A stretch of 35,659 nucleotides of DNA, from NCBI GenBank assembly GCA_013822425.1, contig PNKL01000023.1, forward strand, positions 1-35,659. The letters are read 5' to 3'. The DNA comes from Gemmatimonas sp. Lineage in GTDB: Bacteria > Gemmatimonadota > Gemmatimonadetes > Gemmatimonadales > Gemmatimonadaceae. A program made the position numbers and the translations under genes. Below the pieces are notes generated by a model that saw nothing but the letters and a program-made list of their open reading frames with translations, was not told the origin of the DNA and did not search any database. Numbering within the stretch: the stretch's first letter is position 1; each line of letters opens with the position of its first letter. Shown piece after piece: positions 3,128-34,570 of this stretch.

Positions 3128-4234
3128 TCAGTCGTTCGCTCTGCCCGGATGCCCGTACTCGCCGGACTCGATGTTCTGGATGCGCTCCATGTACTCGCGG
3201 TCCGTGATCGCGTTGTCCCAGGTCCCCGTGGCGCGCGCGCCGACGTAGCCCGCAAGGAACAACCCGACGACCGCGGCGGCGTAGGCCAGCGGCGTCACCG
3301 TCCGGCGGCCGACATGCACGGCCAGCGCGTCCTTCACGGGGCAGACGGCCACGCAGTTGAGGCAGCCCGTGCAATCCACGCTCGAGATGGAGGCGCGCGA
3401 CGACACCGGCAGGCGCGCCATGCACGCCTTGTCGCACATCCCGCACGACACGCAGGCGTCGGCCTTCCGACGGACGCGCGTCGGCGAGGCCCATGAAAAA
3501 AGACCAAGCAGGGCCCCGTATGGACACAGGTAGCGGCACCACAGGCCATGAATGAAGACCGAGCCGATGACGAGCGTCGCCATGACGCCCAGCCCGACCG
3601 CGTTCATCTGCGTGAAGAAGAGCCCCATCTTCACGTCCGCGACCTTGTTGTACGGTGACGTCAGGAACTCCGTCAGCGCCGCGCGGCCCATGCCGATGAT
3701 CGAGAGCACGAAGAATCCCATCAGGACGTACTTCAGGCTCCGCAGGGGGATGTCGAGCCACTTCCACGGGCGGTAGTTCCGGCCGAAGGCGACCCGGCCG
3801 AGGCGTGCCAGCAGTTCAGAGAGAAAGCCCACCGGGCAGATCCACGAGCAGAAGGCCTTCCGGACGAGCAGCGCGATGGCGATCGCCACCAGGACGAGCA
3901 CGGTGGCCGCAGGATGGATCACGTTCAGGCTGCCCTGATAGCCCCAGTCGAGCAGTCCCATCAGGCCGCTGATCGGCAGGAAGGCTTCGACGCCCGTCCG
4001 CCGGCGGTCGCGGCGCCCGTGCGCTTCGCGATGCGGATCGAAAGTGGCATAGAAGATGACTCTTTCGTCATGCGCGGAAATTACGCGCCTGGCCGCCGCG
4101 CGAAGTCGGGGCAACTCACCGCGTTTCGCGAGGGTTGTCCGTACGTAGTACCCGCAACGGCGGTTGGTCCCCCTCCGCGCCCAGCGTACCTTTATCGCCA
4201 GTCGAAATCCGTCATCGCGATCCTGAAGCACCAT
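3128..4234 (-). CDS. Polyferredoxin-like 4Fe-4S membrane protein (NapH/CcoG-like)
   Basis: The protein has two membrane-embedded CxxxCP motifs (CSWICPVG and CRYLCPYG), each next to hydrophobic helices, and two C-terminal ferredoxin clusters (CVSCGMCDKAC and CTGCLNCVAVCP). One more helix follows near the C-terminus. This order is that of NapH/RdxA/NosR-like quinol-linked electron-transfer proteins; the physiological partner is unknown. The start is doubtful. The only in-frame ATG is at 4234, but the first 70 or so residues look non-coding (Arg-rich) and the first 12 overlap the 13-mer array before ftsY. Homologues as I remember them have a transmembrane helix just before the GVEAFLPIS block (recall, not compared here); none is visible. 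A short ATG frame at 4071 looks start-like but is in a different frame, so a frameshift or a non-ATG start is possible. Confidence 0.75.
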   Translation of the reverse strand: MVLQDRDDGFRLAIKVRWARRGTNRRCGYYVRTTLAKRGELPRLRAAARRVISAHDERVIFYATFDPHREAHGRRDRRRTGVEAFLPISGLMGLLDWGYQGSLNVIHPAATVLVLVAIAIALLVRKAFCSWICPVGFLSELLARLGRVAFGRNYRPWKWLDIPLRSLKYVLMGFFVLSIIGMGRAALTEFLTSPYNKVADVKMGLFFTQMNAVGLGVMATLVIGSVFIHGLWCRYLCPYGALLGLFSWASPTRVRRKADACVSCGMCDKACMARLPVSSRASISSVDCTGCLNCVAVCPVKDALAVHVGRRTVTPLAYAAAVVGLFLAGYVGARATGTWDNAITDREYMERIQNIESGEYGHPGRAND

Positions 4235-4262
4235 CCGGATTCCATATCCTCAATCGTCTCCG
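4198..4262. repeat. Degenerate 13-nt tandem array (5 units) ending at the ftsY start codon
   Basis: Five consecutive 13-base units fill 4198-4210, 4211-4223, 4224-4236, 4237-4249 and 4250-4262; the ATG of ftsY is the next base. Four of the five end in ATCC on the plus strand (for example CCAGTCGAAATCC and TGAAGCACCATCC), so read on the minus strand each starts GGAT. The same unit, in the same phase and with 78% identity over 64 aligned bases by hand count, lies before the miaB start (29419-29483). Confidence 0.75.
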
Positions 4263-5177
4263 ATGCCGCTCTTCAAGCCCAAGCGCAGTCTCTGGCAGCG
4301 CCTCAAGGACGTCGCCCTCCTCGACGTCGGCGTGCTCGCGCGCGGCGGGGTTGATGCGGACTCCATCGCGCAGCTCGAAACGCTGTTGCTCGAAGCCGAC
4401 TTCGGCGTGCCGGTGACCATGCGCCTCATCGGCGACCTCGAGCGGCAGGCCAAGCGCGGAGCCTTGAAGACCGAGGCGGAGCTGCTTGGCGCGCTGCGCG
4501 ACGGGATCGTGGGCGCGCTGAGCGCCGGCAATGGCGACCCGGCCTTCGTGCTCCCGGCGGACAAGCCGGCTGTGGTGCTCGTGCTTGGCGTGAACGGTGC
4601 GGGCAAGACGACATTCATTGGAAAGCTCGCCACGCGACTTCGCGGCGACGGAAAGCGCGTCATGGTGGCGGCGGGCGATACCTTTCGCGCCGGCGCCATT
4701 GACCAGCTTCGTGTCTGGGCCGAACGCAGCGGGGCGGACTTCATTGGCGCGCAGTCGGGCGGCGATCCGGCCGCCGTCGCCTATAGCGCCATTGATGCCG
4801 CTGTCACGCGTGGCGTGGACGTGGTGATCATCGACACCGCCGGCCGCCTGCATACGAGCGAAGGGCTGATGGACGAACTGCGCAAGGTCGCGCGCGTCAT
4901 CGCCAAGCGCTTGCCGGGCGCTCCGCATGAATCACTGCTCGTCCTGGACGGCACGATCGGCCAGAACGCGGTGCAGCAGGCCAGGACCTTCGCCGGCGCC
5001 GTGCCGGTCACAGGACTGGTGATCACCAAGCTCGACGGCACCGCGCGCGGCGGCGTCGTGGTGGCCGTGCACGAGGCCATCAACGTGCCGGTGAAGTTCG
5101 TCGGCGTTGGCGAACAGGTGGACGACTTGCGGTTGTTTGACGTCGAAGCCTTCGTCAGCGACTTGCTGGAGGGATAG
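4263..5177 (+). CDS. ftsY: Signal recognition particle receptor FtsY
   Basis: FtsY is the membrane-associated GTPase that docks the SRP-ribosome complex at the translocon. The 304-residue protein has an N-terminal helical domain (about 1-95) and an NG GTPase core: P-loop GVNGAGKTT at 109-117, DTFRAGA at 139-145, DTAGR at 191-195, TKLDGTARGG at 255-264 and GVGE at 281-284. The long acidic A domain of the E. coli protein is absent, as in many phyla, and the protein starts MPLFKPKRSLWQRLKDV, which gives a basic amphipathic membrane-binding helix. The 13-mer array abuts the start codon, so the usual Shine-Dalgarno position is occupied by repeat sequence. Confidence 0.97.
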   Translation: MPLFKPKRSLWQRLKDVALLDVGVLARGGVDADSIAQLETLLLEADFGVPVTMRLIGDLERQAKRGALKTEAELLGALRDGIVGALSAGNGDPAFVLPADKPAVVLVLGVNGAGKTTFIGKLATRLRGDGKRVMVAAGDTFRAGAIDQLRVWAERSGADFIGAQSGGDPAAVAYSAIDAAVTRGVDVVIIDTAGRLHTSEGLMDELRKVARVIAKRLPGAPHESLLVLDGTIGQNAVQQARTFAGAVPVTGLVITKLDGTARGGVVVAVHEAINVPVKFVGVGEQVDDLRLFDVEAFVSDLLEG

Positions 5178-8247: not shown

Positions 8248-8250
8248 CCG

Positions 8251-8389
8251 AACGGAACGAGGAGGGGGTAGAGGCGTAGCGAGGCGGGACGAGGTGTGGA
8301 ACGGCGAGGAGATCGCGCGCCCATGACCTCCCTCCTCGTGCCGCCTCTCGTCCCCCGTTCCTTCGCCTCTACCTCCTCCTCGTTCCGTT
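8251..8389. repeat. Large imperfect hairpin of purine-rich decayed repeats between recG and hppA
   Basis: Bases 8251-8276 match the reverse complement of 8364-8389 in 25 of 26 positions, and weaker complementarity continues inward (GGACGAGG-type blocks at 8286-8293 against CCTCGTGCC and CTCGTCCC blocks near 8335-8354). Both arms consist of variants of a GGAACGAGGAG-like motif, with a rough 12-base period. TTTT follows at 8392-8395, so it could end recG transcription, but the arms are far longer than a usual terminator. Confidence 0.7.
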
Positions 8390-8528
8390 GCTTTTGTGCC
8401 GTTCCAACTTCCCCCAACACCGGAGACTCCATTACCTTACACAGTTGCCTCGGATTATTCGGACTTCCGCTCAACCAGTGGGCCCTCCACGGCCCCGTCT
8501 GAACCCCACCTGCGGTTGAACCCTCGTT

Positions 8529-8534
8529 GGAGAG
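8529..8534 (+). promoter_or_regulatory. Shine-Dalgarno site of hppA
   Basis: GGAGAG lies 5 bases before ATG 8540. It fixes the hppA start there, although the frame is open upstream to 8396. The protein then begins with a good signal peptide. Confidence 0.7.
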
Positions 8535-8539
8535 AACTG

Positions 8540-11113
<2,574 letters not shown>

Positions 11114-20486: not shown

Positions 20487-20539
20487 AGAAACAACAGAGA
20501 AACAACAGAGAGACAACAGAGAAACAACAGAGAGACAAC
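20485..20539 (+). repeat. 11-nt tandem array (5 units) starting in the ALDH16 stop codon
   Basis: Five contiguous 11-base units run from 20485: AGAGAAACAAC, AGAGAAACAAC, AGAGAGACAAC, AGAGAAACAAC, AGAGAGACAAC. The first AG belongs to the TAG stop of ALDH16, and the array ends 13 bases before the thioesterase ATG. The same AGAGAGACAAC unit occurs in frame in mazG at 22700-22743, in both cases reading on the coding strand. Confidence 0.9.
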
Positions 20540-20552
20540 AGGGCATCCACCA

Positions 20553-22192: not shown

Positions 22193-23047
22193 CTATTCGC
22201 CCCGCTTGACCTCGTCCCACATCGCGTCGAGCGCCGCGAGCCCCGCCGTGCGGACGTCAACGCCGCGCTCGGCGGCCAGCCGCTCAATCGACTCGAACCG
22301 CTGCTGGAACTTGCCGTTCGCCTTGTCCAGCGCGAGCGCGGGGTGCACGCCGCACTTGCGGCACAGGTTGACCACCGCGAAGAGCAGGTCGCCCAGTTCC
22401 CCCTCCAGCGCCTCGTGGCGCGGGTCGCCGCTCGGCACGCCGTGCGTCGGGAAGTCGTGGCCGTCCCTCGCGATGAGCTCGGCAACCTCCGCCAGTTCCT
22501 CGCGCACCTTGTCCGACGGTCCCTGCGCGTCGGGCCAGTCGAACCCGACCCCCGCGGCCCGCTCCTGCAGCCGGTGTGCGCGATGCAGGCTCGGCAGCCC
22601 CTGCGGCAGCCCGTCAGCGAGCGACCTCCTCCCCCGCGACTTCATCTGCTCCCACGGCTCGCGTTGCGAGTCGTCCGCAACCCCGCTCCCAGGGGTACTG
22701 TTGTCTCTCTGTTGCCTCTCTGTTGTCTCTCTGTTGTCTCTCTGCTCGTAGAGCCATGGATGTCTCCTGGTCATCTTCGCCACCAACGATCCAGAAACGT
22801 CGCTGATATCGAACGCGCCTCGATCTTCCGCGATGATCGAATGGAAGAGCACCTGGAGCAGGACATCGCCGAGTTCGCTGCACATCGCCGCGTCGTCGCC
22901 AGCCAGCAGCGCGTCATCGAGCTCGTGCATTTCCTCGTTCAGGTACGGCCGCAGCGACGCGTGCGTCTGCGCCCGGTCCCACGCGTCGCGCGTGCGCAGG
23001 TCGCGCATGATGGCCAGCGCCTCATCCAGCGTTTTCTTTTCTTGCAT
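22193..23047 (-). CDS. mazG: Nucleoside triphosphate pyrophosphohydrolase MazG
   Basis: MazG hydrolyses (d)NTPs to NMPs and pyrophosphate. The 284-residue protein has two MazG domains: the first (about 12-98) has AWDRAQTHASLRPYLNEE and SELGDVLLQVLFHSIIAED; the second (about 165-265) has REELAEVAEL, EGELGDLLFAVVNLCRKCG and ANGKFQQRFESIE. The usual CPWD is DAWD here. In the interdomain loop, where homologues have a VFGD-type sequence before WEQMK, a stretch of about 15 residues (QRDNRETTERQQRDN) is encoded by an 11-nt tandem array. ATG 23047 is preceded by GAGGGGGG. It is divergent from alr. The domain calls are firm; the effect of the insert on activity is unknown. Confidence 0.93.
   Translation of the reverse strand: MQEKKTLDEALAIMRDLRTRDAWDRAQTHASLRPYLNEEMHELDDALLAGDDAAMCSELGDVLLQVLFHSIIAEDRGAFDISDVSGSLVAKMTRRHPWLYEQRDNRETTERQQRDNSTPGSGVADDSQREPWEQMKSRGRRSLADGLPQGLPSLHRAHRLQERAAGVGFDWPDAQGPSDKVREELAEVAELIARDGHDFPTHGVPSGDPRHEALEGELGDLLFAVVNLCRKCGVHPALALDKANGKFQQRFESIERLAAERGVDVRTAGLAALDAMWDEVKRGE
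22700..22743 (-). repeat. 11-nt tandem array (4 units) in frame inside mazG
   Basis: Read on the coding (minus) strand, the units are AGAGAGACAAC, AGAGAGACAAC, AGAGAGGCAAC and AGAGAGACAAC, contiguous without gaps. Since 11 is not a multiple of 3, the peptide repeats only every 11 residues. The unit is the same as in the array behind ALDH16 (20485-20539). Confidence 0.9.
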
Positions 23048-28167: not shown

Positions 28168-29331
28168 ATGCCGCCGGCCGGTGCGGAGCTTCCCCCGCTC
28201 GTCCTCGTCGCCGACGACGTCGATGCCAACGCCGAACTGCTCGCCGACCAGCTGACGGCGCTGGGCGTCCGCACCGCCCGGGCGCACGACGGCCCGAGCG
28301 CGCTGGCGGCCTGTTTCGAGGAGCACCCCGACCTCTGCATCCTCGACGTGTCCATGCCGGCCGGCGACCTCGCGGTGGACGACCGCGACACCGGCTTCGA
28401 GGTCTGCCGTCGGCTCAAGCGCGACCCGCGCACGGCACGCATTCCCGTCATCTTCGTCACCGCGCTCAACGACACCGCCGACCGGGTGAAGGCCATCGAG
28501 GCCGGCGGCGACGACTTCCTGCTCAAGCCGCACAATCGCCTCGTGCTTGGCGCGCGGGTGCGCTCGCTGCTGAAGCTCAAGAGCGCCACGGACGCGCTCG
28601 AGCAGAGCTATCGCACCCTGCGCGAACTCACCAAGGTGCGCGACGACCTGATGAAGATGATCGTGCACGACCTCAAGACGCCGCTCACCAGCGTGCTCGC
28701 CACGCTCGAGATGCTGCGCGAGGGCGACTACGGCCCCATGGCGGAGAAGCAGTACAAGGCGGTTTCCGAGGCGGAGGGGAAGGCCGAGGACCTGCTGGGC
28801 CTCATCCAGGACCTGCTGGAGGTGGCGCGGGTGGAGGAGACGCGCATCGCGATTTCGCCCGAACCCATCGCGCCGGCCGCGTTCCTGTCGGAGCTCGTCA
28901 TTGACTGGACCCCGCGCTTCAGCGCCGAGGGGGCGACGATGGCCTACGAGGCGTCGGACGAGGCGCCGGTGTTCAGCGCCGACAAGGCGCTCCTGCGCCG
29001 CGTCTTCGCCAACCTGGTCCAGAACGCACTGTCGCATTCGGCCACGGCGGTGCACGTGGAGCTGGTGGCGATGAAGGATCCGCAGGGCATCCTCTTCACC
29101 GTGACCGACAACGGCCCGGGGATCCCCGCCGAGTTCCAGGAAGTGATCTTCCGCAAGTTCGAACAGGTGCGCGCGCCCAACGCGCCGAAGACGCGCAGTT
29201 CGGGGCTTGGCCTCGCGTTCTGCCGCCTCGCGGTGGAAGCGCACGGCGGCCGCATCTGGGTGCGCAGCAAGGAGGCGGAAGGGAGCACGTTCTATATTCA
29301 GTTGCCGGTGGAGCCGAAAAGTACGGATTAA
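28168..29331 (+). CDS. Receiver-histidine kinase fusion protein (cytoplasmic)
   Basis: This 387-residue protein begins with a receiver domain (Asp60 in CILDVSMP, Lys120 in LLKPHN), continues through a short helical linker into HisKA with His167 in IVHDLKTPL, and ends with an HATPase domain (NLVQNALSH, DNGPGIP, SSGLGLAF). There are no transmembrane segments, so it senses or relays internally; such receiver-first kinases usually take phosphate from another kinase. An insertion of about 10 acidic residues follows the phospho-Asp (GDLAVDDRDTGF). It starts 4 bases after the outer-membrane-like gene. No DNA-binding partner is visible nearby. Confidence 0.92.
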   Translation: MPPAGAELPPLVLVADDVDANAELLADQLTALGVRTARAHDGPSALAACFEEHPDLCILDVSMPAGDLAVDDRDTGFEVCRRLKRDPRTARIPVIFVTALNDTADRVKAIEAGGDDFLLKPHNRLVLGARVRSLLKLKSATDALEQSYRTLRELTKVRDDLMKMIVHDLKTPLTSVLATLEMLREGDYGPMAEKQYKAVSEAEGKAEDLLGLIQDLLEVARVEETRIAISPEPIAPAAFLSELVIDWTPRFSAEGATMAYEASDEAPVFSADKALLRRVFANLVQNALSHSATAVHVELVAMKDPQGILFTVTDNGPGIPAEFQEVIFRKFEQVRAPNAPKTRSSGLGLAFCRLAVEAHGGRIWVRSKEAEGSTFYIQLPVEPKSTD

Positions 29332-29337
29332 GGACGG

Positions 29338-29483
29338 GGACTCAGGATTCCGATCACGGATTTCGATCGCGGATTGCGATTGCGATTCGCCGGTGGATCG
29401 GCGCGCACAGCGCCATCGCCAGTCGAACTCCTGAGTCGCAATCCTCAATCGCTATCCTGAGTCCAAATCCCCAATCGTCGTAG
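29338..29483. repeat. Inverted pair of 13-nt tandem arrays before miaB
   Basis: The left arm (from 29338) holds three exact-phase 13-mers: GGATTCCGATCAC (29345), GGATTTCGATCGC (29358) and GGATTGCGATTGC (29371). The right arm (29419-29483) holds five 13-mers in the reverse orientation, such as TGAGTCGCAATCC and TCAATCGCTATCC. The outer 11 bases (29338-29348) are an exact inverted match to the sequence ending at 29463. The right arm is 78% identical to the array before ftsY and ends one base before the miaB ATG. Confidence 0.8.
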
Positions 29484-29484
29484 A

Positions 29485-30810
29485 ATGCCAACGGTCTTCA
29501 TCGAGACATACGGATGCCAGATGAATGTCAGCGACTCCGAGCTCATGCTCGGCAAGCTGGCGGCCGAGGGCTATGCGGCGGTGGACAGTCCTGAGGCAGC
29601 GGACGTCGTGCTCCTCAACACGTGCGCCATCCGCGAGCATGCGGAAACGCGCGTTATCGGGCGGCTGGGGGAACTGCGGCGATTCCTCAAGAAGGACGCG
29701 GTGCTCGGCGTCACCGGGTGCATGGCCCAGCGCCTCGGACCGCGCCTGCTCGAGACCGACTCGCGGGTCTCGCTCGTCATCGGACCCGACGGCTATCGCG
29801 CGCTCCCCGCGCTCATCGAGGGGGCGCGCAAGGGCGAGCGGATGATCGCCACCGAGTTCGACCTCGAAGAGCACTACGAGGACGTCGCCGCGAGTCGCTT
29901 CGACGGCGTGAAGGCATGGATCCCGGTGCAGCGTGGCTGCGATTATCGGTGCACGTACTGCATCGTGCCGTATACGCGCGGCAACGAGCGCAGCCGCCAG
30001 CTCGAGGACGTCGTGCGCGAGACCGGGTCGGTGGTGGCGCAGGGGCTCACCGAAGTGGTGTTGCTCGGGCAGACGGTGAACTCGTACCACGATGGCGCGC
30101 GCGACTTCGCCGACCTGCTGCGTGCGGTCGGTGCCGTGCCGGGCCTGCGTCGCCTGCGCTTCACCAGCCCGCATCCCAACGACTTCAGCGACGGCGTGAT
30201 CGCGGCGATGGCCGAGGTGAAGGCGGTGTGCGAGCACGTGCACCTGCCCATGCAGAGCGGGAGCAGTCGCACGCTCAAGCGCATGCTGCGGCGCTATACG
30301 CGCGAGGAGTACCTCGACTGCGTGGCGCGCCTGCGCGCGGCGATCCCCGGGCTGGGGCTCACCACCGATATCATCGTCGGCTTTCCCGGCGAGACGGACG
30401 AGGATTTCGCCGAGACGTTGAGCGCCGTGCGAGAGGTTGGGTTCGACGATGCTTTCATGTTCAAGTTCTCGGCGCGCGAAGGGACGCCGGCCACGCGCCT
30501 GCCGGCGGAAATGACCGTGCCGGACGATGTGATGGACGCGCGGTTCAACGAGCTGCTGGCCACCGTGCGCGGCATCAGCCGCGACCGCAACTTCCGCCGG
30601 GTGGGCGAGCGGTGCGAGGTGCTCGTCGAGAAGGAGGCCCGCAAGGGGGAACTGCTGCAGGCGCGGTCGCGCGACTTCAAGACCGTGCTCATGCCCGGCG
30701 ACAAGTCGATGATCGGGCAGTATTTCCACGTGGAACTGACCGGGACAACCGGGTCGACGTTCACGGGGCAGGTGGTGCGCGAGCGTGCGCCGCTGCCGAT
30801 GTCGGGGTAG
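29485..30810 (+). CDS. miaB: tRNA-2-methylthio-N6-dimethylallyladenosine synthase
   Basis: MiaB is a radical-SAM methylthiotransferase that modifies A37 of tRNAs reading UNN codons. The 441-residue protein has the three N-terminal UPF0004 cluster cysteines (Cys11 in ETYGCQMN, Cys47 in NTCAIRE, Cys79 in GCMAQ), the radical-SAM CxxxCxxC at Cys152/156/159 (GCDYRCTYC), the LLGQTVNSY and HLPMQSGS blocks, and a C-terminal TRAM domain (about 370-435). The LNTCAIRE and GQTVNSY forms point to MiaB rather than MtaB or RimO. ATG 29485 follows directly on the 13-mer array, and no conventional ribosome-binding site is evident. Confidence 0.96.
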   Translation: MPTVFIETYGCQMNVSDSELMLGKLAAEGYAAVDSPEAADVVLLNTCAIREHAETRVIGRLGELRRFLKKDAVLGVTGCMAQRLGPRLLETDSRVSLVIGPDGYRALPALIEGARKGERMIATEFDLEEHYEDVAASRFDGVKAWIPVQRGCDYRCTYCIVPYTRGNERSRQLEDVVRETGSVVAQGLTEVVLLGQTVNSYHDGARDFADLLRAVGAVPGLRRLRFTSPHPNDFSDGVIAAMAEVKAVCEHVHLPMQSGSSRTLKRMLRRYTREEYLDCVARLRAAIPGLGLTTDIIVGFPGETDEDFAETLSAVREVGFDDAFMFKFSAREGTPATRLPAEMTVPDDVMDARFNELLATVRGISRDRNFRRVGERCEVLVEKEARKGELLQARSRDFKTVLMPGDKSMIGQYFHVELTGTTGSTFTGQVVRERAPLPMSG

Positions 30811-34496: not shown

Positions 34497-34570
34497 CGCT
34501 CTGCCGTTCTCTGCCGTTCTCTGCCGTTCTCTGCGGTTCTCTGCCGGATTCTGTCGTACTCCGTCGCTCT
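34497..34570 (+). repeat. 10-nt tandem array upstream of fbp
   Basis: Contiguous 10-base units from 34501 read CTGCCGTTCT three times, then CTGCGGTTCT, CTGCCGGATT, CTGTCGTACT and CCGTCGCTCT, with a partial unit (CGCT) before. The first copies are exact and later ones decay toward the fbp start at 34581. No inverted partner is seen. The array lies 30 bases after the comEC stop. Confidence 0.88.

Follow-up and report, generated by a model that had tools for sequence, protein, structure and literature searches.

An inverted array upstream of miaB in Gemmatimonas sp. is probably a gene-less member of a dispersed, S23-associated element family

A quasi-palindrome in the kinase-miaB spacer

A long array-loop-inverted-array structure lies directly upstream of miaB in Gemmatimonas sp. 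Is it a special structure of this junction, or one copy of something more widespread? The element spans positions 29325-29475 of the window, i.e., the whole 35,659 nt stretch of DNA that was analyzed. The left arm (29325-29383, + strand; profile match 29327-29373) is composed of GGATT(N)2GAT(N)3 units with a 13 nt period. The central loop (29384-29422, +) contains a short GC-rich hairpin in the fold, GGATCGGCGCGCACAGCGCCATC, and no S23 gene. The right arm (29423-29475, − strand; profile match 29475-29429) is an inverted copy of the left-arm array. A repeat search placed the arms at 29326-29353 and 29423-29450, and both this search and the fold show terminal inverted repeats that form a stem. 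Genes were called with a simple codon-usage caller and assigned by Pfam. The upstream gene (28168-29331, +) encodes a kinase with response-regulator receiver, HisKA, and HATPase domains, and the downstream gene is miaB (29485-30810, +), with UPF0004, Radical SAM, and TRAM domains. The quasi-palindrome fills nearly the entire spacer, and its right arm stops 9 nt upstream of the miaB start codon. The initial annotation had the array between the two genes. This is correct for the spacer, but the left arm already begins in the last codons of the kinase gene, and the final GAT TAA, which gives the stop, falls within the array.

Most of the described architecture was recovered. The three tandem 13-mers beginning with GGATT start at 29345, 29358, and 29371, spaced exactly 13 nt apart, and the units are 86% alike. 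The exact 11 nt inverted repeat (GGACTCAGGAT/ATCCTGAGTCC) lies at 29338-29348 and 29454-29464; the outer coordinates had been slightly off, as position 29338 pairs on the right with 29464 rather than with 29483. An inverted 13 nt array is present on the right (29421-29470), but rather than five units it holds about 3.8 degenerate copies with a 72% match. The proposed long stem is well supported by RNA folding (−70.5 kcal/mol, z = −4.0), with 0 of 200 shuffled sequences folding as well. The window copy has no terminator-like site, with a GC-rich stem-loop and a T run after it, which agrees with the earlier opinion that this is not a terminator, and an intrinsic terminator was rejected on these grounds. 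The initial annotation had also judged that it does not look like a known riboswitch, and an Rfam search of the whole window gave no match above the gathering score.

The miaB spacer across the genus

We compared the kinase-miaB spacer in 11 genomes of the genus, all of which are multi-contig draft MAGs. The hairpin is present in five, half-replaced by another array in three, and absent from three. The five species with both arms have strong folds (z −3.6 to −6.3), so that the stem is retained despite base changes, and the periodicity also outlives these changes, with the GGATT/GATT spacing kept. In G005, G010, and G002 the right arm is retained and the left side is a different array (GACGGTG in G010); these spacers have no excess folding (z 0.1, 0.7, and 2.1, respectively). 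Thus, the arms can be replaced singly. The spacer is just 0 to about 20 nt in G009 and G003 and carries no element, and in G004 it consists of unrelated sequence. Outside the genus, where both genes are adjacent, the spacers are short and without the element.

The initial annotation had staked its reading on related strains keeping the stem. They did so in part, the hairpin being broken in three and missing in three of the 11 species, and therefore miaB does not need it. The same counts, together with the lack of an Rfam match, led us to reject a miaB leader or riboswitch. The idea of a structure special to this junction was not supported, given that the element belongs to a dispersed family and is single-armed here in three species and missing in three. 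Because stem mismatches show no wobble bias on the sense strand (51 vs. 46), selection on a sense RNA hairpin is not demonstrated, and selection acting via wobble pairs was set aside. For a promoter role of the right arm, a by-eye comparison found left and right arms to look no different.

A dispersed family of inverted arrays

The window element is repeated across its genome. A BLASTN with it as query resulted in 69 matches in the source genome (G000). Matches were found in 10/11 genomes of the genus, G003 being the one without, and there was no match in 20 genomes outside the genus. The relatives lie between protein genes. A one-arm profile gave the family layout, in which the outer end is GATTGAGGATTTGGACTCAGGATTGCG. 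Left arms usually begin at the stop codon of the preceding gene and often provide the stop (GATTGA). Right arms usually finish some 6-12 nt upstream of the start codon that follows; where the two genes converge, they instead abut the stop codon of the other gene. Partnerless single arms are common. Element-free spacers were found in G009 and G003, and no target-site duplication was defined from them.

More generally, of the 399 spacers with a length of 60-400 bp in a 1.19 Mb portion (about half) of G000, 56 have long inverted arms. Such arms are very rare by chance, with only one case among shuffled spacers at the score threshold. Several unit families are represented. The families with units CCACGGAG and CCGCGGATTACGCGG, for example, occupy spacers of G000 that include C2:47833-48077 and C12:45229-45466. 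Other arrays lie within the window. A half-arm of the miaB-spacer family (4195-4258) precedes the gene at 4263, GGAACGAGGAGG arms are located at 8248-8575, a AGAGAAACAAC array follows a stop codon (20487-20552), and a CTCTGCCGTT array precedes a start codon (34499-34546). A ACAACAGAGA-type array (22698-22744) is in frame within a MazG-like gene (22193-23047, −), where it separates two MazG-type domains and would encode a linker. Arms of the same locus are slightly more alike than arms of different loci in the same genome (0.3% of 10,000 permutations were as high); most of the likeness is genome-wide.

The positions of these spacers could point to a bidirectional transcription end or an mRNA-stabilizing hairpin, kept for separating neighboring transcripts. 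Long inverted arms are enriched between convergent genes (20/59 spacers, vs. 30/258 tandem and 6/82 divergent), and many family copies contain a GC-rich inner hairpin. However, the window copy has no terminator-like site, unpaired arms are common, and six of the 11 species have no stable hairpin of this kind at the miaB spacer. This explanation also leaves the S23 gene and the species-wide unit change, described below, unexplained, and we regard it as unlikely.

S23 genes between inverted arrays

A full-length, gene-bearing relative of the window element exists at C9:22745-23369. Here, two arms of the miaB-spacer family, some 510 bp apart, enclose a gene of the S23 family (PF05635; 23S_rRNA_IVP), and the orthologs of this locus likewise have the S23 ORF in the loop. 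This S23 lineage is present in the ten genomes with BLASTN matches and was not found in G003, which also has no match. For the most part, the S23 locus has been inherited without a change of position. Inverted arrays also flank most of the remaining S23 genes in the genus, and each S23 lineage has its own array unit, i.e., AGAGAAACAAC, TAGAGGG or AGACGGT, GGAACGGGGAGGAGG, GGGCACGG, and others. We found no S23-bearing member of the CCACGGAG and CCGCGGATTACGCGG families in the genus.

The association extends across phyla. With a flank score of z ≥ 4 as the threshold for an array-flanked locus, inverted short-unit arrays flank 38/44 S23 genes of Gemmatimonadota vs. 22/600 random sites. In other phyla (Bacteroidota, Ignavibacteria, Poribacteria, and others, in genomes reached via the miaB search), they flank 16/27 S23 genes vs. 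3/600 random sites. The control sites in both comparisons were picked at random rather than matched as small genes. A separate control with 344 small genes of the source genome had scores ≥ 25 in 8/344 cases, vs. 30/45 S23 loci. Five of the six Gemmatimonadota loci without arrays belong to one ortholog group adjoining pth and ychF (L221, L229, L240, L243, and L245), which may represent a domesticated S23 gene.

To our knowledge, the S23 family is widespread, has no known function, and has been encountered mainly in rRNA intervening sequences (IVSs), and we know of no transposase for it. The S23 proteins of the loci analyzed here resemble XCC0516 (2gsc). XCC0516 has been compared with Avd, which PF05635 resembles (PMC10053308).

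Concerted change of array units

Lineages of the S23 protein tree correspond to array units, and unit switches within an S23 lineage affect both arms. Two genomes have the unit RAAGCAGAGARRAAGCAGA (also AAAGCAGAGA) on both arms of their S23 element; they contain 172 and 34 occurrences of it, vs. 0-1 in each of the nine other genomes. G008 has 58 occurrences of GGAGCTCGGATTGGGAT, which is found no more than once in any other genome (never in G000) and lies on both arms of the S23 copy and of the miaB-spacer copy of G008. GGACYYAGGATTGCGAT, in turn, is present 67 times in G000 and absent from G008. Species-specific variants are shared simultaneously by the S23-bearing copy and gene-less copies elsewhere.

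The element is present in both G000 and G008 at 11 orthologous spacers. The flanking genes there are mostly 85-93% identical (73% for one flank), and some inner loops can still be recognized in part. Ten of these spacers have usable arms in both species. Identity of their 44 nt arms between G000 and G008 is 62% for orthologs and 62% for non-orthologs, vs. 76% between sites within G000 and 79% within G008, the last figure being favored by the choice of G008 sites through a variant motif. Positions 17-44, beyond the anchor motif, omit most of that motif and gave 57, 57, 70, and 68%, respectively; 0/401 site-wise label swaps reached the observed within- vs. between-genome difference over these positions.

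Predictions from the array counts, written down alongside the S23 search, were made before looking. The first concerned which of G007-G010 would have a AGAGAAACAAC-type S23 element; it proved correct for G007, G008, and G009 and only partly so for G010, whose S23 element has AGAGAACGAC arms, yet whose genome contains 198 matches of the ACAACAGAGA unit. The S23 lineage of the miaB-spacer family was expected in all genomes but G003, as was found. Judging by these comparisons, the array units evolve in concert genome-wide. A change of spelling shared across copies suggests an undescribed mobile or self-homogenizing element that is spread widely in bacteria.

A coordinated change across many orthologous sites and the S23 locus could also come about if the arrays were binding sites recognized in trans by a protein or RNA (perhaps S23) of drifting specificity, with all sites selected to follow. 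Sites have, however, been lost, half-replaced, or overwritten with other arrays, and the arms diverge much faster than their flanks, which is more readily explained by copying than by point mutations under selection. We consider such binding arrays quite unlikely; between the two origins of the shared spelling, copying from the S23-bearing copy fits best and drifting recognition in trans is possible. Plain slippage repeats, arising independently at each site and inverted by template switching within the spacer, would account for tandem short units of variable copy number and for the modest locus-specific likeness between two arms, but they are a very improbable origin, contradicted by the concerted pattern, as independent slippage does not produce one and the same species-specific unit in the S23 element and across dozens of unlinked positions; slippage may still be the mechanism of length change.

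Comparison with known elements

The IVSs of 23S rRNA are the closest in organization. They are hairpins, some of which contain an S23 ORF, that RNase III excises, and they are held to be selfish and perhaps formerly mobile (PMC4990558). The Coxiella IVS is 428 nt long, with terminal inverted repeats, an S23 ORF, and RNase III excision, and tandem heptamers were reported beside the ORF, a further likeness to the present arrays (PMC4990558). The family described here shares with the IVSs of Leptospira, Coxiella, and Salmonella the inverted-repeat stem, a loop that may or may not contain the S23 ORF, and a sporadic distribution. Unlike those IVSs, which are located in helices 9, 25, or 45 of 23S rRNA, these elements are in the spacers of protein genes, the window element between a histidine kinase gene and miaB, and each genome has dozens of them, whose array units are concerted.

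ERIC and REP/BIME sequences are MITE-like imperfect palindromes that are dispersed between genes, many of their copies being non-coding. The present family is similar in all of these respects, but its arms consist of short-period arrays, with a unit that varies from species to species. The source genome has only one Y1 transposase gene (Y1_Tnp, RAYT-type), a partial one at a contig end, and no arrays were found on its readable side. A REP/RAYT element was rejected, as this single partial gene is not flanked by the repeat. Cyanobacterial STRR sequences are short (heptamer) tandem units in spacers, as are the present arrays; we do not know of any inverted pairing or S23 linkage among them.

Diversity-generating retroelements have a homologous small accessory protein (Avd, the S23 homolog), and their trans-acting copying into a target site could explain concerted arrays. 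They differ in their reverse transcriptase (PF00078), for which a search of the 11 genus genomes found none in ten; the sole gene is L382 (G000 C4:33376-33993). A PF00078 enzyme is therefore unlikely to do the copying, and homing driven by a DGR-type reverse transcriptase was rejected.

A proposed origin and its meaning

The miaB-spacer feature is probably a gene-less, MITE-like member of a dispersed, IVS-like family of S23-associated inverted arrays. The family is real: it has an S23-bearing member with the same arms, S23 genes and arrays are associated across phyla, and there is one unit per S23 lineage. It is best read as the counterpart, in protein-gene spacers, of the S23-bearing IVSs of 23S rRNA. 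We infer its mobility and a homogenizing mechanism. The element would be transcribed passively along with the neighboring genes and may be tolerated in spacers because it fits closely between the stop codon and the start codon. By analogy with an IVS, its RNA hairpin may be cut, probably by RNase III. The S23-bearing copy, or its protein, would act in trans as the source that spreads or overwrites arrays at other sites, through transposition into, or conversion of, existing arrays. Several observations count against this explanation. No insertion was caught, the S23 locus stays mostly in place, the CCACGGAG and CCGCGGATTACGCGG families have no S23 member, the pth/ychF group has no arrays, G010 is a mismatch, the stems have no wobble bias, and the genomes are draft MAGs.

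We found no description of S23 with inverted arrays outside rRNA in the open-access literature, and a prior description elsewhere is possible; the family is apparently undescribed. More tentatively, S23 could mark a widespread, undescribed class of elements in which the S23-bearing copy rewrites gene-less arrays in trans at many fixed sites, each genome keeping its own current spelling. Most sampled S23 genes, in several phyla, are inside inverted-array elements between ordinary genes, and the arrays are concerted across the genome. Puzzling intergenic arrays would thus be explained as a single phenomenon, and the function of S23 and the movement of IVS-like elements become testable questions.
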